Shown here: piece by piece, positions 8,976 through 26,792 of the stretch
Layout of the letters: every line of letters starts with the position of its first letter
Position numbering within the stretch: the stretch's first letter is position 1
Virus record (IMG/VR): IMGVR_UViG_3300006790_000063
Coordinates: 1 to 32,597 of that record
Reading direction: 5' to 3' (one strand)
DNA from: a virus
Length of the DNA stretch: 32,597 nucleotides
Program-made: the position numbers and the translations under genes
The notes under the pieces: model-generated
What the model saw: the letters and a program-made list of their open reading frames with translations, nothing else
What the model was told of the DNA's origin: nothing
Database searches by the model: none

Positions 8976-10580
8976 ATGGCTAATATTGCATTTTATGGCT
9001 CTCATAACGGTGCTATCGCTGTTGAAAACGATGGGGATTATCACGTAATTGAATTTGAACGTTTTTTTAATGTTAAAAATCAAGGTTTAGCACAATATAA
9101 ACCTCTTCGTTATAGAGAAGAAGCAGTTTACTCTATTTTAGATTATATTGATAAGGAACTGGGAATTTCAGCACCGTTTGAAAACATGATTCACATTAAT
9201 ACGGAATGTGTGCATGATGATATTACCTATAGTTATAAAGATTATATCCCCGCTAAAAATGTGTTTGAAGGTTGGCATCATCATGCACATGCTAGCGGGT
9301 CATTTTACCAATCTGATTTTCAAAAGGCACTAATTTTTAGTTTTGATGGTGGTGGTAATGACGGGTTTTTTAATATCTTTATAGCTAATAGACAAAACGG
9401 TGTTACCTATCTAGATAAAACTAACCCTGCTGATAAAACAAATTACGATTTCGATTTTGGTTTTCCTTATATGTGTTTTGGACATTTCTGTAAGGATATT
9501 AAACAGGAATGGATTTCAGATGGTAATCTAGTTTATAGTGGCAAAATCATGGGTTTATGCAATTATGGTAAAGCTAGAGATGAATGGTTACCGCACTTTA
9601 AAAAGTTTTATTATTCAAAACCTGATGGTGAAAACTATTTACGACATTTAAATGAATTTATTACACAACCAACTGGTTTAGTATTTGATGAAAATAAGAG
9701 ACTTGAAGGTGACCTTAGTTGGGATGTGGCAGCTACATCACAAAAAGCTTTTGAAGAGTGTTTTTATGAAGTAGCTCAACCTTATATTGATAACTTTAAT
9801 GACTACCCTATTATTATTACTGGCGGGTGCGGTCTTAACATTCTTCTTTCTACAGATTTACGAGAACGTTATCCTAGTCGCGGTGTTTTTGTGGCTCCTA
9901 ATACTAACGATTGTGGAATTGCACTTGGTCTTTTGGCAGGTTTTAATAAACCCTCTACCCCTATTGATATTACGTATGGCGGGACAGAGTTAATGGACAA
10001 AAATTGTTACCCAGCATGGATTGAAAGCAATTCGGCTAAGCCATTTGATACTGGGTTTGTTGTTAATGAACTATGTAACGGTAAAATATTTGGAGTTGCA
10101 AGAGGTCGTGCAGAACATGGTCCAAGAGCATTAGGCAATAGGTCGATTATATGTAATCCAGCATTTCCTGAAATGAAGGATATTTTAAACCATAAAGTTA
10201 AACATAGAGAATGGTATCGGCCGTTTGCTCCTGTTTGTAAGTTAGAAAATGCTTCAAAATATTTTGAATGGGAGGGGGAATCTAAACATATGCTATTCTG
10301 TCCTAGAGTAAGGCCTGAATGGCAAGAAAAATTATCGTCAATTACCCATGTTGACGGTACTGCTAGACTTCAAACAGTTACCAGAGAACAAAATGAGTGG
10401 TTGTATGACTTACTTACAGCTTTTGAAGCTCAAGCTGGACATGGTGTTTTGTTAAATACATCTTTTAATATTGCCGGAAAACCAATCTTAAACACGATAG
10501 CCGATGCAATGTGGCTTTTAGAAAATTCTGAGATGGATTATTTGATTATCGAAGACTTTTTCTATGGTAAACATTGGTAG
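8976..10580 (+). CDS. NodU/TobZ-family O-carbamoyltransferase
   Basis: The 534-residue protein matches the two-part carbamoyltransferase family. The N-terminal domain carries HHHAHASGSFYQSDF near residue 107 followed by SFDGGGNDG, the Kae1-like metal and nucleotide site. IMGLCNYGKA follows near residue 190, and TGGCGLN plus a PNTNDCGIALG segment near residue 310. The C-terminal domain has RGRAEHGPRALGNRS near residue 378, WYRPFAPV and LLNTSFNIAGKP near residue 493. Known members transfer carbamoyl from carbamoyl phosphate, via carbamoyl-AMP, to a hydroxyl on a sugar or related compound. With the sugar genes nearby, a deoxysugar or glycoconjugate is the likeliest acceptor, but a modified nucleoside is possible. 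Length is normal for the family. Confidence 0.9.
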   Translation: MANIAFYGSHNGAIAVENDGDYHVIEFERFFNVKNQGLAQYKPLRYREEAVYSILDYIDKELGISAPFENMIHINTECVHDDITYSYKDYIPAKNVFEGWHHHAHASGSFYQSDFQKALIFSFDGGGNDGFFNIFIANRQNGVTYLDKTNPADKTNYDFDFGFPYMCFGHFCKDIKQEWISDGNLVYSGKIMGLCNYGKARDEWLPHFKKFYYSKPDGENYLRHLNEFITQPTGLVFDENKRLEGDLSWDVAATSQKAFEECFYEVAQPYIDNFNDYPIIITGGCGLNILLSTDLRERYPSRGVFVAPNTNDCGIALGLLAGFNKPSTPIDITYGGTELMDKNCYPAWIESNSAKPFDTGFVVNELCNGKIFGVARGRAEHGPRALGNRSIICNPAFPEMKDILNHKVKHREWYRPFAPVCKLENASKYFEWEGESKHMLFCPRVRPEWQEKLSSITHVDGTARLQTVTREQNEWLYDLLTAFEAQAGHGVLLNTSFNIAGKPILNTIADAMWLLENSEMDYLIIEDFFYGKHW

Positions 10581-10592: not shown

Positions 10593-10599
10593 AGTGCAT

Positions 10600-11391
10600 A
10601 TGAGTAATATAGGAGTAATGCCTTTTAGTGGCGGAATGGACAGTGCAGTTATGCTTCCAATGACAGTTGGTCAGCATGATGAGTTGCATCTTCTTACTTT
10701 TGATTATGGTCAACGCCATAAACGTGAGATTGAATGTGCAAAAAGACAAATTCAACTAAACGAAATTCAATCATTTGGACATTGTTTTGATACACATAAG
10801 TTAGTTCACAAAATTATTGATGTTTCTTTTATAAAAGATTTAGCTACTACCAGTTCATTAACTAATGAAGAAATTGATAACCCGGATGTTAGTGAAATGG
10901 TCGGTGAAGCTCAACCTGTAAGTTATGTACCTTTTCGAAATCAAATATTTTTATCGATTGCATGCGCCTATGCTGAATCAGTGGGTGCTAGCACCGTATA
11001 CCATGGTGCTACTAAAGTGGATTCTTTAGCTGGTTACTGGGATGGTAGTCCGGAATTTTTAGATAGCTTTAATAACCTTGTTGACCTTAATAGATCAAAT
11101 CGTATTAAAGTAAAATGCCCACTTATCAATATGGATAAAAAGGATATTGTTAAAGCAGGTTGTGAAGGTAGGGTAGATTTCAGTCAAACCTATACTTGTT
11201 ATAGTGGTGAAGAAATTGCTGATGCAACTACACCTAGTAGTTCACTACGAATTAAAGGTTTTGCAGAAGCGGGCTATATTGACCCGCAGCCATACAAACA
11301 AGACCTTACTAGTTTATGGGAAGAGCATGACTGTAAGCCATGCCCTACTAATAATTTGTTTGAAGATCTAAGAGGCACTAGAGGACCTTAA
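10600..11391 (+). CDS. queC: QueC-like 7-cyano-7-deazaguanine synthase with altered zinc site
   Basis: The 263-residue protein is a PP-loop ATP pyrophosphatase of the QueC family. The PP-loop is FSGGMDS (9-15), followed by LTFDYGQRH near residue 31, VPFRNQIFLS near residue 110 and a C-terminal GFAEAGYIDPQPY stretch that aligns with the end of QueC. QueC converts 7-carboxy-7-deazaguanine to preQ0 with ammonia and ATP. The usual CxxxxxxxCxxCxxC zinc site is broken: Cys200 (YTCYSG) is kept, but the next three positions are replaced by a TTPSSS stretch, and a new CKPC (245-248) lies near the C-terminus. I chose ATG 10600 over GTG 10594 because it starts the domain properly. It overlaps the convergent gene by 4 bases. 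Confidence 0.88.
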   Translation: MSNIGVMPFSGGMDSAVMLPMTVGQHDELHLLTFDYGQRHKREIECAKRQIQLNEIQSFGHCFDTHKLVHKIIDVSFIKDLATTSSLTNEEIDNPDVSEMVGEAQPVSYVPFRNQIFLSIACAYAESVGASTVYHGATKVDSLAGYWDGSPEFLDSFNNLVDLNRSNRIKVKCPLINMDKKDIVKAGCEGRVDFSQTYTCYSGEEIADATTPSSSLRIKGFAEAGYIDPQPYKQDLTSLWEEHDCKPCPTNNLFEDLRGTRGP

Positions 11392-12597: not shown

Positions 12598-13677
12598 ATG
12601 AAGAAAGCACTAGTTTGTGGCGGTGGTGGGTTTATTGGAAGTCATCTTGTAAAACGCCTTAAAAAAGAAGGTTACTGGGTTAGGGCTGTCGATCTTAAAG
12701 AACCGGAATTTTCAACAACAGAAGCTGACGAATTTATAGGTGGTGATTTGACAGATTACAATTTTACCCGTGAAATTGTCGCTACTGGAGACTTTTATAG
12801 CACAACACCTGTTCAATATAAAGAACAGTTTGACGAAATTTATCAATTAGCAGCAGATATGGGTGGCGCGGGTTATATTTTCACCGGTGAAAATGATGCA
12901 GCAGTTATGCAAAATTCTGCTTCTATTAACTTAAATATTTGCAAAGCTGTAGATGATTTAAATAAATTTGTACGTACTGATTGGTACCATGAAGCTCGTT
13001 TAAAACATATTTCTTACGAACCTATTGACACTAAAATTTTCTATAGTAGCTCAGCATGCATGTACCCTGAACATAATCAATTAGACCCGGAGAACCCTAA
13101 CTGTGAAGAAAGCTCTGCATACCCAGCAAACCCAGACAGTGAATACGGATGGGAAAAACTATTTAGCGAAAGGTTATACCTTGCTTATAATAGGAATAGG
13201 GGTATTCCCGTTCGCATTGCACGTTTTCACAACATTTATGGCCCCGAAGGAACCTGGAAAGGTGGAAGAGAAAAAGCTCCAGCCGCATTATGTCGAAAGT
13301 TTGCAGAAGTCGAAGACGGAGGAACAATAGAAGTTTGGGGTGACGGTAAACAAACCCGTTCTTTCTTGTATATTGATGAGTGTGTTGAAGGAATTAGACG
13401 ATTAATGGATTCGGATTGTACAGAACCCGTTAATATTGGTTCCGATGAAATGGTATCCATTAACGACACTGTCGGCGAACTTATAAAAATTAGTGATAAG
13501 AAAGTTATTATTGAACACTTGCTTGATAAGCCAACGGGTGTAAGGGGAAGAAACAGTGATAACAAATTTATTAAAGAAAAAATCGGTTGGTCTCCTAACT
13601 ATCCATTAAAAGACGGTTTATCTAAAACTTTTAAATGGATAAACGAACAAGTAAAACTTGATAAACAAGAGGCATAA
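12598..13677 (+). CDS. GDP-mannose 3,5-epimerase-like SDR enzyme
   Basis: The 359-residue protein is an extended short-chain dehydrogenase/epimerase. The NAD-binding GGGGFIGSH lies at residues 8-16. AADMGGAGYIF near residue 84, SSACMYPE near residue 151, the catalytic YGWEK (YxxxK) near residue 182, and FHNIYGPEGTWKGGREKAP near residue 205 follow. These segments, and a later EPVNIGSDEMVSIND stretch, match plant and bacterial GDP-mannose 3,5-epimerase strikingly well, including the acid/base Cys and Lys. That enzyme makes GDP-L-galactose (and GDP-L-gulose) from GDP-mannose. It is cytoplasmic and probably supplies a sugar donor to the glycosyltransferases. A related 4,6-dehydratase or epimerase activity cannot be excluded. 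Confidence 0.85.
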   Translation: MKKALVCGGGGFIGSHLVKRLKKEGYWVRAVDLKEPEFSTTEADEFIGGDLTDYNFTREIVATGDFYSTTPVQYKEQFDEIYQLAADMGGAGYIFTGENDAAVMQNSASINLNICKAVDDLNKFVRTDWYHEARLKHISYEPIDTKIFYSSSACMYPEHNQLDPENPNCEESSAYPANPDSEYGWEKLFSERLYLAYNRNRGIPVRIARFHNIYGPEGTWKGGREKAPAALCRKFAEVEDGGTIEVWGDGKQTRSFLYIDECVEGIRRLMDSDCTEPVNIGSDEMVSINDTVGELIKISDKKVIIEHLLDKPTGVRGRNSDNKFIKEKIGWSPNYPLKDGLSKTFKWINEQVKLDKQEA

Positions 13678-19508: not shown

Positions 19509-20594
19509 ATGCCAGACGAAAATATTATCGACGCTGAATTCGAAGAGACTACAAATGAGTACGAAGTAAATGATAGACAAAAAGTGCTTATTGTAGGCAA
19601 TGGTTATATAGGCTCTACACTAGGTAACTTCCTTTCATTAGATGAACAAAATATTGAAGTTCACACTATTTCTAGAGAACAAGTTAATTATCTAGACAGA
19701 GAAGAGTTAAGTCAATTTTTTAATTCTTATGTCGAACAAGGTGTTTCGTTTGATCACGTAGTAAACTGTGTTGGTTTTGCCGGAAACAAGAATGTAGATG
19801 ACGTAGCAGATGATGTAGAATTAGCTTACATTCTTAATACTGTGTTTCCTGTAACGTTGGCTTCAGTTTGTCAACGGTTTAATATACCTTCTGTAATTAA
19901 TATTGGTACGGGGTGTATTTACGACGGTTATAAAGAAGATTCAGAAACAGGCTACAACGAAACAGATATTCCTAACTTTGGTATTTCTAATAATTCATCC
20001 ACGTACTCTAAAACAAAACATCTTGCTGAGATTGCAATTACTAATTCATTTGCGAACGTTTATAGTTTAAGAATTAGAATGCCTCTTAGTGAGGTACCTT
20101 CAGAAAAGAATAACAGAAACCTATATGAAAAATTATTAGGTTATCAAAAATTACTTAACACAAAAAATAGTGTTACTTATCTTTATGATTTACATAATGT
20201 AATTTACAACATTATTATCTCTAATGAAATCCCGTTCGGGGTGTATAATGTTGTTAATGATGGCGAACTAACTGGTGAGACAATCTTAGAAGTCTTTAGA
20301 GAAAATAATGACAAACTTGTTGAAGCAGGCTTAGTTGAAGAAGGTTATCTCGATACTGTTGAATTGCTTAGTTTAGACCAGTTTACCTCAGCAGATCTTG
20401 TTAAAGAACCGAGAAGTAATACAACTTTAGATAATTCTTTAATCAAAGATATATTGGGTATCGATTTGGTAACTATTAACAAAGAATGGTTGTCTGAAAA
20501 CTTTGTTAAATTTATAGAAGCGTCAAAAACTTCTTCTGAAGAAGATTCTGCTGATGGTGAAAATGAAACCACCGAAGAATCTTCTGAAGAGTAA
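19509..20594 (+). CDS. RmlD-like NAD(P)-dependent sugar reductase/epimerase with acidic tail
   Basis: The 361-residue protein is an extended SDR enzyme. An acidic 20-residue leader precedes the nucleotide-binding strand VLIVGNGYIGSTLG (near residue 26); a NVD-rich N-terminal half, INIGTGCIYDG near residue 135 and the catalytic YSKTK (YxxxK) near residue 170 follow. It resembles dTDP-4-dehydrorhamnose reductase, which would complete a dTDP-deoxysugar route with RmlA and RmlB, although RmlC is not seen. The C-terminal 25 residues are Ser/Glu-rich and probably disordered, unusual for this family. It overlaps rmlB by one base (TAATG), so the two are coupled. Confidence 0.75.
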   Translation: MPDENIIDAEFEETTNEYEVNDRQKVLIVGNGYIGSTLGNFLSLDEQNIEVHTISREQVNYLDREELSQFFNSYVEQGVSFDHVVNCVGFAGNKNVDDVADDVELAYILNTVFPVTLASVCQRFNIPSVINIGTGCIYDGYKEDSETGYNETDIPNFGISNNSSTYSKTKHLAEIAITNSFANVYSLRIRMPLSEVPSEKNNRNLYEKLLGYQKLLNTKNSVTYLYDLHNVIYNIIISNEIPFGVYNVVNDGELTGETILEVFRENNDKLVEAGLVEEGYLDTVELLSLDQFTSADLVKEPRSNTTLDNSLIKDILGIDLVTINKEWLSENFVKFIEASKTSSEEDSADGENETTEESSEE

Positions 20595-21529
20595 TGAATA
20601 TCGTAGTCACAGGCGGTCACGGATTCATTGGCAGTCATTTATGTAAGTATTTGACTGCCAAAGGAGCTAACGTTTATAATATTGATAGTCTAACTTATGC
20701 CTGTGACTACGTAAACATTACAAAAGTACCTACAGTTGAAACACTTCGTTATAATATTGTCACCGATCAAATTAAACTTGATAAATGGTTTAACTGTCAC
20801 CCTCGGTTTGATGCATTAATTCACTTAGCTGCAGAAACACATGTAGATAATAGTATACATAAACCCTGTGCATTTGCAAGTACAAACGTAGTTGGTACAT
20901 GTACTATGTTAAACATAGCTAAACGATATTATATTCCAAAATATATACAGGTTTCAACTGATGAAGTTTATGGTTCACTCGAAGAAGATGAAAATCCTTG
21001 GGATGAATCTAGACTTTTAGAACCAAATTCCCCTTATTCGGCATCTAAAGCAAGTGGTGATTTACTAGCTTTATCATATTACAAAACTTTCGGCATGGAT
21101 ATTAGGATTACAAGGTGTTGTAATAACTTTGGAATAGGTCAACATATAGAAAAATTAATTCCTAAATCTATTTTGTCTGCCAAAAAGTATAATTATATTG
21201 ACATTTACGGGGATGGTACAAACGAAAGAGAATGGATACATGCTGAAGACCATGCTAGGGGAATATACAAAGTATTACAGTACGGTCAACAAGGAGAAAT
21301 TTATAATATTGGTACAGGAGAAACTTTTTCAAATAATGAAATAGCAAATATGATTATTAAAAGAGTTAATCCTAACGCTAGCATAAGTTATATAAAAGAT
21401 AGACCCGGTCACGATAAAAAATACCAGGTAGATTTTTCTAAAATTGAAAAAATTGGTTTTAGACCGCAACGTTCTATAAAAGACGAAAAGGAATGGGATG
21501 AAATGGTTCGGTATTACGAAAAATACTAA
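20594..21529 (+). CDS. rmlB: dTDP-glucose 4,6-dehydratase (RmlB)
   Basis: The 311-residue protein has the NAD-binding GGHGFIGSH (residues 7-15), NIDSLTYA near residue 29, HLAAETHVDNSI near residue 77, the active-site STDEVYG near residue 118, the catalytic YSASKASGD near residue 149, RCCNNFG near residue 175, and DRPGHDKKYQVD near residue 273. This series is diagnostic for RmlB, including the Asp-Glu pair that sets dehydratases apart from epimerases. It converts dTDP-glucose to dTDP-4-keto-6-deoxyglucose. It is slightly shorter than cellular RmlB (about 350). The ATG shares a base with the upstream stop; the next gene starts inside its last 32 bases. Confidence 0.93.
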   Translation: MNIVVTGGHGFIGSHLCKYLTAKGANVYNIDSLTYACDYVNITKVPTVETLRYNIVTDQIKLDKWFNCHPRFDALIHLAAETHVDNSIHKPCAFASTNVVGTCTMLNIAKRYYIPKYIQVSTDEVYGSLEEDENPWDESRLLEPNSPYSASKASGDLLALSYYKTFGMDIRITRCCNNFGIGQHIEKLIPKSILSAKKYNYIDIYGDGTNEREWIHAEDHARGIYKVLQYGQQGEIYNIGTGETFSNNEIANMIIKRVNPNASISYIKDRPGHDKKYQVDFSKIEKIGFRPQRSIKDEKEWDEMVRYYEKY

Positions 21530-23143: not shown

Positions 23144-24187
23144 ATGGTTTTACCTGAGGCATACATCGTACAAAAATTTTATCAGTACGCTGGGCAGCCC
23201 AAGTATAATAGACTTGCAAAAACTTACCAAGGAGGATGTCCTGTGTGTAGAGAAGGCAAGTCTTGGGGCAAGAAACGCAGACTGTTTTATGTTGTAAAGG
23301 ATAACTTCCTGCATTGTCATAATTGTGGGTGGCATTCGAATCCAATGAACTGGATTATTGAAGTGTCAAACATGTCTGTAAGTGACATTTATAAAGAAGC
23401 GGATGAATATGATTTAATACCTCAGGATATTTCATCTAAGGAAGATATTAACGAGTTAGCTAAAAAGAGTACATCAAACTCGTTACCAGATGATAGTATT
23501 AATTTATTTGATAAAAGTCAAACTGACTACTTCAAAGCTAATCCAATTGTACAAACTGCTTTAAACTATATAAAAACGCGTAAGCTTGATCAAGCATTTA
23601 ATAAACCAAAAGCATTATATATTTCATTAAAAGACTTTACACATAAGAATAGACTTATCATACCTTTTTATGATGTATCTAATAAGATTATCTTTTATCA
23701 AAGTCGGACTATCATAGAGAATAGAAAAGTTAATCTCCCTAAGTATCTAAGCAAGATAAACAGTGATAAGAGCCTGTTCAACATTAATAAAGTCAATGAA
23801 GAGCTTGATTACATTTTTATTACAGAAGGGCCAATAGATGCTTTTTTTATTGAAAATGGGGTTGCAGTAGCAGGTATAAATGAAAATAGTGAAACAATGT
23901 TTACTGCAGTGCAAAATCAGCAAATACAAAAGTTTCCATTTACCGAACGTATTATAGCTTTAGATTCACAATGGCAGGACAAAGCTTCACATAATAAAAC
24001 TAAAATCTTATTAGAAAAGGGGTTTAAAGTATTTGTTTGGCCTAAAAAGTTTGGTGAAAAATTTAAAGACTTTAATGATATGTGTATAGGTCTAAACATA
24101 GAAAAAGTCCCTACTAACTTTCTTGTACAAAATTCATACAAAGGGTTAGAGGGACTCGTTAAACTGAACTTACTTGGTATCAGCTGA
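23144..24187 (+). CDS. 61: DNA primase gp61
   Basis: The 347-residue protein (T4 gp61 is 342) has an N-terminal zinc finger of two pairs, CPVC near residue 31 and CHNC near residue 57, joined by a basic strand, and a C-terminal TOPRIM-type catalytic domain with FITEGPIDAFF near residue 226 and IIALDSQWQDKAS near residue 268. It makes RNA primers for the lagging strand together with gp41. Its last 18 bases overlap the convergent gene at 24170-24568, with no terminator between them. Confidence 0.93.
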   Translation: MVLPEAYIVQKFYQYAGQPKYNRLAKTYQGGCPVCREGKSWGKKRRLFYVVKDNFLHCHNCGWHSNPMNWIIEVSNMSVSDIYKEADEYDLIPQDISSKEDINELAKKSTSNSLPDDSINLFDKSQTDYFKANPIVQTALNYIKTRKLDQAFNKPKALYISLKDFTHKNRLIIPFYDVSNKIIFYQSRTIIENRKVNLPKYLSKINSDKSLFNINKVNEELDYIFITEGPIDAFFIENGVAVAGINENSETMFTAVQNQQIQKFPFTERIIALDSQWQDKASHNKTKILLEKGFKVFVWPKKFGEKFKDFNDMCIGLNIEKVPTNFLVQNSYKGLEGLVKLNLLGIS

Positions 24188-24568
24188 ATGCATATAACCT
24201 TTTAAGTTCTCAATTAACGAACTTAAATCCATCGCAACTCTCGCAATTTTTTTAGTTTCTGCACCAGCAATTTTATTAAACAAAGTATCGCAACCAGCAT
24301 CGTGTAATTTTGTTTGCACTGAATCACCTTCACTATTAAGGAAATTAGTAAATTCTTCCATCGCGCTAATCCAACCGGCTAACTCTTGAGCTTGAGCTAC
24401 ATTGTTGGCTTTGGTCATATCTTCTGGAGATTGTACGGGTGCATCTACTTCAAAATCTGCAGTGTCGGTTTCTGGTTCGAGCTGTGTTTCCATAGCTTCG
24501 ACATCAGTAATTTCTACATTTTCATCCTGTTCTAACAACTTTAAAAAACGTTTGCTGAAAAAGCTCAT
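24170..24568 (-). CDS. Acidic late-type protein, unknown function
   Basis: The 132-residue product has a basic N-terminal peptide (MSFFSKRFLKLLEQDE), a long acidic middle (residues 16-50) and a helical C-terminal half. The N-terminal LLE followed by Gln resembles the L-x-E motif of T4-type prohead cleavage, and the overall composition recalls small prohead core or internal proteins, but no family is recognised. A late-type box (ATTAAATA) ends 5 bases before its ATG; it is divergent from the 24601 gene, which has its own late box. Confidence 0.65.
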   Translation of the reverse strand: MSFFSKRFLKLLEQDENVEITDVEAMETQLEPETDTADFEVDAPVQSPEDMTKANNVAQAQELAGWISAMEEFTNFLNSEGDSVQTKLHDAGCDTLFNKIAGAETKKIARVAMDLSSLIENLKGYMHSADTK

Positions 24569-24600: not shown

Positions 24601-25005
24601 ATGTCAAGCTTAAAATTACTTGCAGAAGATCAAATTGCAATGTATAATAAATGGGTTCGTGGTATAGCTACAAGAGAGCAAAAACCCTCACATGTCACGG
24701 TAGCAGACCTATTACAAGCAAGTGGTCGCAATGATCAGAATAAAGCACCCTTAGAGTTACCTTACCCAATGACGCACATTGTGGAGGACATGGGAGCTTT
24801 GTTTCTCGCTGCAGACAATATTGAAGCTAAAGCACGTAAGACGAAAGATAATCCCGTTGTGACAGAAAGTGAAGATGCTTCTAAAGGATTAGACGAATTT
24901 ATTGATAAATGCGAAAAAATTAAAGGCATTCTTAACAGTATGACCGAAGATTTAGATGTTGTGCTTCAAATAAAACCGTTTGAAAGTGGTAATACAGAAG
25001 CTTAA
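24601..25005 (+). CDS. Hypothetical late-type protein
   Basis: The 134-residue product is mixed in charge and predicted mostly helical, with an N-terminal MSSLKLLAEDQIAMYNKWV and a C-terminal helical half rich in Asp and Lys (LDEFIDKCEKIKGIL). It contains no recognisable domain, signal peptide or membrane segment. Expression from a late-type box suggests a virion or assembly role. Confidence 0.65.
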   Translation: MSSLKLLAEDQIAMYNKWVRGIATREQKPSHVTVADLLQASGRNDQNKAPLELPYPMTHIVEDMGALFLAADNIEAKARKTKDNPVVTESEDASKGLDEFIDKCEKIKGILNSMTEDLDVVLQIKPFESGNTEA

Positions 25006-25008
25006 ATA
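25001..25008 (+). promoter_or_regulatory. Late-type promoter box of the HXXSHH gene
   Basis: CTTAAATA ends exactly 5 bases before the ATG at 25014. Its first bases are the end of the preceding gene, including the TAA stop. Confidence 0.65.
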
Positions 25009-25013
25009 TTTAA

Positions 25014-26258
25014 ATGAACCGCAGACAGTTCGTAGGGTCGTTAGGTTTAACATTTGCTTTACCTCAACTAGAATGTTTCGGTAATGTAACTAACGAAATA
25101 AAAAGATTAGCTGTAGTATATGTTCCAAACGGCATTAACATGGAACATTGGACACCTAAAAATTACGGCGATGTAATTGATATACCTAATACCTTATCTC
25201 CTTTAGAAAATCACCTTAACGAAACTCAAATTATTTCTGGTCTTACTCATGATAAGGCTAGAGCCAATGGTGATGGTGCTGGTGATCATGCAAGAGCTGC
25301 TTCAACCTTTCTAACTGGTAAACAAGCACATAAACACGAGTCTAAAATCCGTTCTGGGGTATCTGTTGATCAATTAATTGCTGAACAATACAACGGTATA
25401 ACAAGATTTGATAGTTTACAGTTTACGGGAAGTAAAAGTCGGTTAGTTGGTAAATGTGATTCTGGGTATAGTTGTGCATATCAATACAACCTTTCATGGA
25501 AAAACGCAATGCAACCAATGGCTGCAATGCATGATCCTCAAGATATTTTTAATAGGTTGTTCAATGTAAGGAGTTTAAAACAAAAACAGTTAGCATATAA
25601 AAAATCCATTTTAGATTTTGTATTAGAAGACACCAAATCTTTATCAGGTAAAGTAAGCAACACTGACAAAGTAAAGCTTGATGAATATATGTATGCTGTT
25701 AGGGAAGTTGAAAAGGATTTACAAAATAGAGAAAGGTTTAAGCTTGATAAAGACTTTCATTTAGATTTTGAAGTAAACAAAAAGTCGGATAAAATAAGAT
25801 TACTTTATAAATTAATGCACTTAGCATTTTTAAATGACACAACCCGTGTTATTACATTCTTAACTCAACATGACGGGTATAATGGCCCACATAGAGAGAT
25901 TGGTATATCAGAAGGTCATCATAGTTTATCACATCATCAAAAAGACCCTAAAAAACTCCACGATTTAGCTATGATAGATCTTTATAATGTTAGGTTATTT
26001 TCTGAATTTATTTCTGACCTTAAAAAAGATAACATGTTAGAAAATACAGACGTTATTTACGGTGCGGGGATATCGGACGGCAACAGACACAATCATGATG
26101 AATTACCGGTATTATTAATTGGTGGTAAAAATAAAGGAACCCACTTTAGAGTTGAAAAAGAAAAACCAATGTGTGACTTATTTGTTAGTTTATTACATAA
26201 ACATGGAGTTAATGCGCATAAATTTGGAGATTCAAGCGGAGAGCTCAATGTTGTATAA
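25014..26258 (+). CDS. Secreted HXXSHH (DUF1552) family protein, bacterial-type, in a phage
   Basis: The 414-residue protein matches the DUF1552/HXXSHH family along its length. It starts with a twin-arginine-like export signal (NRRQFVGSLGLTFALPQL, residues 2-19). VVYVPNGINMEHWTPK follows near residue 34, SGLTHDKARANGDGAGDHAR near residue 76, CDSGYSCAYQYNLSW near residue 142, and the family motif HSLSHH at 303-308. The family is known from secreted proteins of Rhodopirellula and other Planctomycetota, Verrucomicrobiota and some other bacteria; biochemical function is unknown. It is full length and intact, with base composition like its neighbours, and is read from a late-type promoter box. It overlaps the lipoprotein-like gene by 11 bases. 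Confidence 0.9.
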   Translation: MNRRQFVGSLGLTFALPQLECFGNVTNEIKRLAVVYVPNGINMEHWTPKNYGDVIDIPNTLSPLENHLNETQIISGLTHDKARANGDGAGDHARAASTFLTGKQAHKHESKIRSGVSVDQLIAEQYNGITRFDSLQFTGSKSRLVGKCDSGYSCAYQYNLSWKNAMQPMAAMHDPQDIFNRLFNVRSLKQKQLAYKKSILDFVLEDTKSLSGKVSNTDKVKLDEYMYAVREVEKDLQNRERFKLDKDFHLDFEVNKKSDKIRLLYKLMHLAFLNDTTRVITFLTQHDGYNGPHREIGISEGHHSLSHHQKDPKKLHDLAMIDLYNVRLFSEFISDLKKDNMLENTDVIYGAGISDGNRHNHDELPVLLIGGKNKGTHFRVEKEKPMCDLFVSLLHKHGVNAHKFGDSSGELNVV

Positions 26259-26442
26259 GTTGTTAGCTGTATTACTATTATTCACTACTGGGTGTACCGG
26301 TACATGGGTATGGCAAGAAAATTACCCTAAACACCGTACAATGTCTCTTAAATGTCCTAGATGGAGCTACGATGAATCTTATGATAAATTACATCATGCA
26401 TGGACCACAAAACAACACGAGCCTATAAAAATTAAAAAATGA
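26248..26442 (+). CDS. Small putative lipoprotein
   Basis: The 64-residue product begins MLYKLLAVLLLFTTGCTG: a short hydrophobic stretch followed by Gly-Cys, as in a lipoprotein signal, although the lipobox is loose (FTTGC). The mature part is short, basic and aromatic-rich. The ATG at 26248 has a Shine-Dalgarno sequence GGAGAG (26238-26243) inside the HXXSHH gene; I prefer it to the longer frame from 26119, which runs antiphase over that gene. A small outer-membrane lipoprotein could be a lysis spanin partner or a companion of the secreted HXXSHH protein; both are guesses. Confidence 0.6.
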   Translation: MLYKLLAVLLLFTTGCTGTWVWQENYPKHRTMSLKCPRWSYDESYDKLHHAWTTKQHEPIKIKK

Positions 26443-26792
26443 AGTTCAATGTCTATGTAAGAGAGCAGCGAATGAAGTATTTTAAAAATCTTGACAAGTT
26501 TTCAAAGATTTTAGGTGTTAAAAAAAGTATGTGGCGTAAGATAGAAAGAGGTATTAACCCACCCCCTAAAAAAACATTACTTAGAAAATTTGCTCTCTTA
26601 ACTAATATGTTTGCATATGAAGAATCACAAATGTATGCTTATGCAAGAAGATGGCAACCTTCTGATGATACTAACACAGGTAACCACACGTTAATCAATT
26701 CTAACTCTCCTATAGAATGGAAACAAAAAATGATAGAAGAGAACACTCCTGATTACGAACACAAATACTGGAAACGAATTGATTTTTATTGA
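26439..26792 (+). CDS. Small XRE-type helix-turn-helix protein
   Basis: The 117-residue product has an N-terminal helix-turn-helix of the Cro/C1 type: VREQRMKYFKNLDKFSKILG (residues 7-26), then VKKSMWRKIERGINPPPKKTLLRKF, where the MWRKIERG segment matches the recognition-helix pattern of XRE regulators. The C-terminal 50 residues are polar with several Trp and Tyr and have no recognised domain. It would bind DNA as a dimer; its target is unknown. The ATG overlaps the lipoprotein stop by 4 bases. Confidence 0.7.
   Translation: MKFNVYVREQRMKYFKNLDKFSKILGVKKSMWRKIERGINPPPKKTLLRKFALLTNMFAYEESQMYAYARRWQPSDDTNTGNHTLINSNSPIEWKQKMIEENTPDYEHKYWKRIDFY

Follow-up and report, generated by a model that had tools for sequence, protein, structure and literature searches.

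The window, i.e. the whole 32.6-kb virus record analysed here, carries an intact gene for a protein of the HXXSHH family (PF07586/DUF1552), which lies directly behind a TTAAATA box (Table 1). The first-pass annotation had assigned the open reading frame to this family as a full-length protein, and the profile search bears this out. The match has an E value of 3.5e-82 (276.9 bits, the curated cut-off being 30) and extends over residues 31-329, equivalent to positions 1-306 of the 307 in the profile; a PHROG search with the same protein gave no match. The HSLSHH motif is present as described, in the form G-H302-H303-S-L-S-H307-H308, which conforms to H-x-x-S-H-H. H303, H307 and H308 are invariant among 71 aligned phage and cell sequences, and H92, C148, D149, C154, D275, R278, H359 and D406 are likewise invariant in phage and cell copies. 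The protein begins with MNRRQFVGSLGLTFALP. R3 and R4 are kept in all full-length phage copies and are nearly invariant among 62 homologues, consistent with the twin-arginine-type signal proposed for it. The family, placed mainly in Planctomycetota and Verrucomicrobiota by the first-pass annotation, has a broader distribution and is found also in Acidobacteriota and on sphingomonad plasmids.

Table 1. Features of the HXXSHH locus and of related loci in other contigs (positions without a contig name refer to the window)
Feature	Position	Strand	Remarks
134-aa phage protein	24601..25005	+	Own TAAATA box; relative in L009/L017 backbone, 29% identity
TTAAATA late-type box	25002..25008	+	Ends 5 nt before the HXXSHH ATG; position-specific enrichment
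HXXSHH (PF07586/DUF1552) protein	25014..26258	+	414 aa, ATG start, intact; alkaline-phosphatase-superfamily fold predicted
Putative twin-arginine-type N-terminal signal (MNRRQFVGSLGLTFALPQLECFG)	25014..25082	+	R3/R4/F6 conserved; unfolded in model
GHHSLSHH defining motif	25914..25937	+	Residues 301-308 of the HXXSHH protein
Small lipoprotein-like ORF	26248..26442	+	Lipobox TTGC; overlaps the HXXSHH end
117-aa HTH-like protein	26439..26792	+	53-70% relatives beside HXXSHH in L012, L013, L016
Ammonium transporter genes near HXXSHH, lineage II	L012:5509-6729; L026:1458-2702		
TonB-dependent receptor genes directly after HXXSHH	L093:11544-13757; L095:11324-13549		
Small His-rich lipoprotein near HXXSHH, lineage II	L026:5758-6054	-	

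Does the gene belong to a phage? Its placement in a T4-type phage proved correct: the window encodes T4 replication and packaging genes (DNA polymerase, UvsX, SSB, clamp, helicase, primase, exonuclease and the start of TerL), and the partial terminase has a full-length counterpart in contig L010, which is TerL. As the DNA polymerase is only ~31% identical to those of cultured phages, the window represents a remote T4-type lineage. A scan of IMG/VR viral contigs (viral_contigs) for other phages with the gene revealed copies that are 71-100% identical on 25 further contigs. Two of these, L002 and L010, share with the window both the gene (100% and 98%) and its flanks; the other 23 carry it in other phage contexts. 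L003-L009, L017 and L029 share a related T4-type backbone and, as far as each contig extends, hold the gene between tail-sheath/sugar-nucleotide-transferase genes and tail-tube/terminase genes. Contigs L012-L014, L016, L026, L028 and L030, termed lineage II, have a different terminase; that of L026 is at best 27% identical to those of cultured phages, over 59% of the length, and 23% identical to that of L010. HXXSHH copies are thereby placed in at least two unrelated phage lineages, one T4-type and one with another terminase. No INPHARED record matches the protein, and the open-access literature yielded no paper that names HXXSHH, DUF1552 or PF07586 in phages. The shared flanks of L002 and L010 and the 23 other phage contexts exclude a chimera of phage and bacterial DNA at this position. 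More generally, that the gene represents an assembly chimera or host DNA in passing is extremely improbable: nothing was found in favour of it, and against it stand the 25 contigs, the conserved flanks, the strong purifying selection and the lack of any cellular relative above 43% identity.

How was the gene acquired, and by how many routes? The 23 phage copies included in the tree form a single clade (support 100/100), whose stem measures 1.49 substitutions per site. Among the cellular proteins sampled, the nearest come from Planctomycetota and are about 43% identical at most; a nearer relative may exist in Pseudomonadota, Verrucomicrobiota or Bacteroidota, outside the phyla searched by whole genome. 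Strong purifying selection acts on the phage gene: dN/dS is 0.03-0.11 for nearly all phage pairs with unsaturated synonymous change. Its history conflicts with that of the phage backbone. L009 and L029 are 82% identical in TerL, 79% in primase and 76% in HXXSHH; L009 and the window are 50% identical in primase and 87% in HXXSHH, and the TerL proteins of L009 and L010 are 56% identical. The gene has therefore passed between phages. A wider scan detected further IMG/VR contigs with weaker copies, at 27-41%, and a tree that includes these distant copies needs five changes between cell and phage, at least three of them forced by well-supported branches. These data indicate three or more transfers between cells and phages, the contigs in question being viral by IMG/VR class, with phage genes confirmed beside the copies in L090 (tail fibres) and L095 (UvsX, SSB). 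The gene had also been called the best clue to the host. With a stem of ~1.5 substitutions per site, at most 43% identity to the sampled cells and transfer between unrelated phages, that inference is rejected.

A structural model offers a hint of function. An AlphaFold model based on 62 sequences from phages and cells reached a mean pLDDT of 83.9 and a pTM of 0.84; residues 1-24 are below a pLDDT of 50. The top Foldseek matches in the PDB all belong to the alkaline phosphatase superfamily: carrageenan sulfatase (E 1.7e-6), steroid sulfatase, LtaS and phosphonate monoester hydrolase. VIA realignment to the SPAP alkaline phosphatase gave a Z of 17.6 and an rmsd of 3.6 over 261 residues, and PafA and the NPPs also match. 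Across the superfamily (sulfatases, NPP, PafA/SPAP, LtaS) the predicted fold is alike over ~260 residues, with Z of 16-17.6, but sequence identity is ~10%; TM-scores are ~0.4, as is usual for a distant relation. HXXSHH is thus predicted to have the core fold of this superfamily. Profile-profile comparisons, which are independent of the model, lend weak support: against DUF1501 (20 sequences, one row of which, L097, is in the wrong frame) P is 1.7e-5 over 295 columns with a probability of 78%, and against the C-terminal part of sulfatases P is 3.8e-5, both weak matches. A sequence search of solved structures gave chance matches only (best E 0.45), comparison with a single DUF1501 sequence was uninformative (2.5% probability), a phosphodiesterase profile produced no useful signal against HXXSHH, and the usual metal motif of the superfamily is not recognisable in the HXXSHH sequence.

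In a weak profile alignment (P 0.013), H92 of GDHARAASTFLTG is paired with the formylglycine cysteine of sulfatases, in their motif CTPSRAALLTG, and the canonical nucleophile may therefore be replaced by histidine; His92 would then stand where Ser, Thr or formylglycine is usual. With histidine in this position, catalysis could differ or be absent. Could the protein then be a non-catalytic, exported, histidine-rich binding protein that alters the cell surface or serves in superinfection exclusion? The apparent histidine at the nucleophile position would suit such a role, as would the small lipoproteins encoded nearby, which include the His-rich one of L026 that possibly binds metal. We regard this as quite unlikely, however, as the phage copies keep all invariant residues of the cellular family, and the ancestral biochemical activity, whatever its kind, is therefore likely to have been kept as well.

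The sequence upstream of the gene bears on the time of expression. In 9 of the 35 window genes the start codon is preceded by a TAAATA box whose end lies 2-12 bases upstream, and the frequency of TAAATA in the window is 0.82 per position at -12 to -2 of starts vs 0.02 further upstream. L009, L010, L017 and L029 show a similar enrichment, terminase genes included, and the box at HXXSHH itself is kept in these four contigs and the window, where the rest of the upstream sequence differs. In lineage II the enrichment is not clear. The exact, canonical T4 late promoter box is TATAAATA. As a promoter box for HXXSHH it was rejected: it is depleted rather than enriched in the window (one exact copy vs 6.2 expected), with none at HXXSHH. 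The proposal of a late-type promoter box holds as to the kind of element, TTAAATA being one of the set of TAAATA boxes enriched at starts, and fails as to the canonical sequence. As the TAAATA boxes resemble the T4 late promoter and also precede packaging and tail genes, we infer that they act as late promoters. Window starts with the box are 2749, 8976, 11388(-), 24170(-), 24601, 25014, 28979(-), 30096(-) and 31168(-). Most of these genes have no Shine-Dalgarno sequence, and if the boxes do act as promoters, little or no leader would precede the start codon in the transcripts. The divergent genes 24170-24568 (-) and 24601-25005 (+) have one TAAATA box for each direction within a 32-nt gap, an arrangement found also in L009, L010, L017 and L029.

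A late-type box would also suit a virion component, e.g. a tail-borne enzyme that degrades envelope or capsule. Gene position gives this some backing, since a distant copy lies within a tail-fibre cluster in L090/L092 and the gene sits between the tail sheath and tail tube genes in L009, L017 and L029. On the other hand, that position differs between phages, in L009-type genomes HXXSHH is on the strand opposite the tail genes, and the conserved Tat-type signal is needless in a virion protein assembled in the cytoplasm. A virion role is thus judged unlikely, and the signal and the predicted enzyme fold rather favour export to the cell envelope.

The neighbours of HXXSHH vary between phages. Relatives of the lipoprotein-like and HTH-like genes of the window are found beside HXXSHH in L012, L013 and L016 in the opposite orientation, and both genes are absent from L010, which is otherwise near-identical to the window; they therefore look like a separate mobile pair. 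A Pfam search with the lipoprotein-like ORF gave no match. In cells (L020, L021), HXXSHH directly follows a cytochrome-type gene (DUF1587/1595/1592/1588/1585) with the domain order PSD3-PSD5-PSD4-PSCyt3-PSD2. PSD4, which represents this DUF1592-type partner, was found in none of 18 phage records tested, many of them fragments, and the control genomes also gave 0, while the same model did score beside HXXSHH in cells. One virus-classed contig has a DUF1501 protein directly upstream of HXXSHH (L096:8492-9778). The window itself has a sizeable set of sugar-modification genes (8976-10580, 10594-11391, 12598-13677, 19509-21529), comprising a NolO-like carbamoyltransferase, a QueC/amidotransferase-like protein and three sugar-nucleotide epimerase/reductase genes.

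Other neighbours suggest transport. In lineage II an ammonium transporter gene lies within ~5 kb of HXXSHH (L012, L013, L026), and in L093 (159 kb) and L095 (267 kb) the gene, duplicated in L093, is followed by a TonB-dependent receptor gene; a phrase search of the open-access literature found no paper on such phage receptor genes. Viral amtB-glnK-ompL sets are described in PMC8115048 and exemplify phage auxiliary genes for envelope transport. They resemble the lineage II loci in being phage-borne and envelope-directed with an amt gene nearby, but the passages of PMC8115048 consulted do not mention HXXSHH. Does the exported protein help the cell to gain phosphorus, sulfur, nitrogen or a metal, in the periplasm or from a surface polymer? 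This is a possibility on the doubtful side, and it is similarly doubtful that HXXSHH forms part of a phage-borne uptake gene set: the lineage of the window has neither Amt nor TonB-dependent receptor neighbours, and uptake is fitted better by early than by late expression.

An exported metalloenzyme that acts late in the host envelope is the reading that best accounts for the evidence as a whole, namely the signal, the predicted fold, the retention of invariant residues, the late-type box and the envelope-type genes found beside HXXSHH in other phages (Amt, TonB-dependent receptor, sugar-nucleotide transferase). The same evidence fits nutrient supply and remodelling of the surface alike. We propose with moderate confidence that HXXSHH is a moron, kept by phages, that encodes a late, Tat-exported, metal-dependent envelope enzyme. 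The gene is spread over, and actively maintained in, at least two unrelated lineages, and these phages therefore probably send an enzyme to the envelope of the cell they infect. The gene would have been acquired long ago from the bacterial family and then passed between unrelated phages. It would be transcribed late in infection, and the folded protein would leave the cytoplasm through the host Tat system, on which export would depend. Its site of action would be the periplasm or the outer face of an infected Gram-negative cell. There, as a metal-dependent enzyme with an alkaline-phosphatase-superfamily fold, it would most likely hydrolyse or otherwise process an envelope or extracellular compound that carries phosphate or sulfate, and it would work without the cytochrome partner present in cells.

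How does this proposal compare with known proteins? The PF07586 proteins of Planctomycetota and Acidobacteriota share with the phage copies the full-length profile match, the Tat-type start and the invariant His, Cys and Asp residues, but the phage proteins form a separate clade, are ~25-40 residues shorter and are without the DUF1592/cytochrome partner. DUF1501 (PF07394) proteins are abundant in the same genomes and also have a Tat-type start (PMC5122149). They constitute a separate Pfam family whose likeness to HXXSHH is at the profile level, with a probability of only 78%; a phage DUF1501 protein was found in BFVD. The literature found assigns no activity or function to the HXXSHH family.

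We put forward, tentatively, that several unrelated phage lineages carry an exported metalloenzyme with the alkaline phosphatase fold, from a branch yet to be assayed, in which histidine takes the place of the nucleophile; late in infection it would process the host envelope or nutrients bound to it. If this is true, phages would be the simplest system for learning the role of the very abundant DUF1552 family. Each of the three planctomycete and acidobacterial genomes tested has 13-16 copies of HXXSHH genes. The phage copy stands alone, without the cytochrome partner, and is under strong selection in unrelated phages, and the protein is therefore useful on its own within one infection cycle. 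The function of the whole family would thus be testable through one small phage gene, and an exported enzyme would be an addition to the possible actions of phages on the host envelope.
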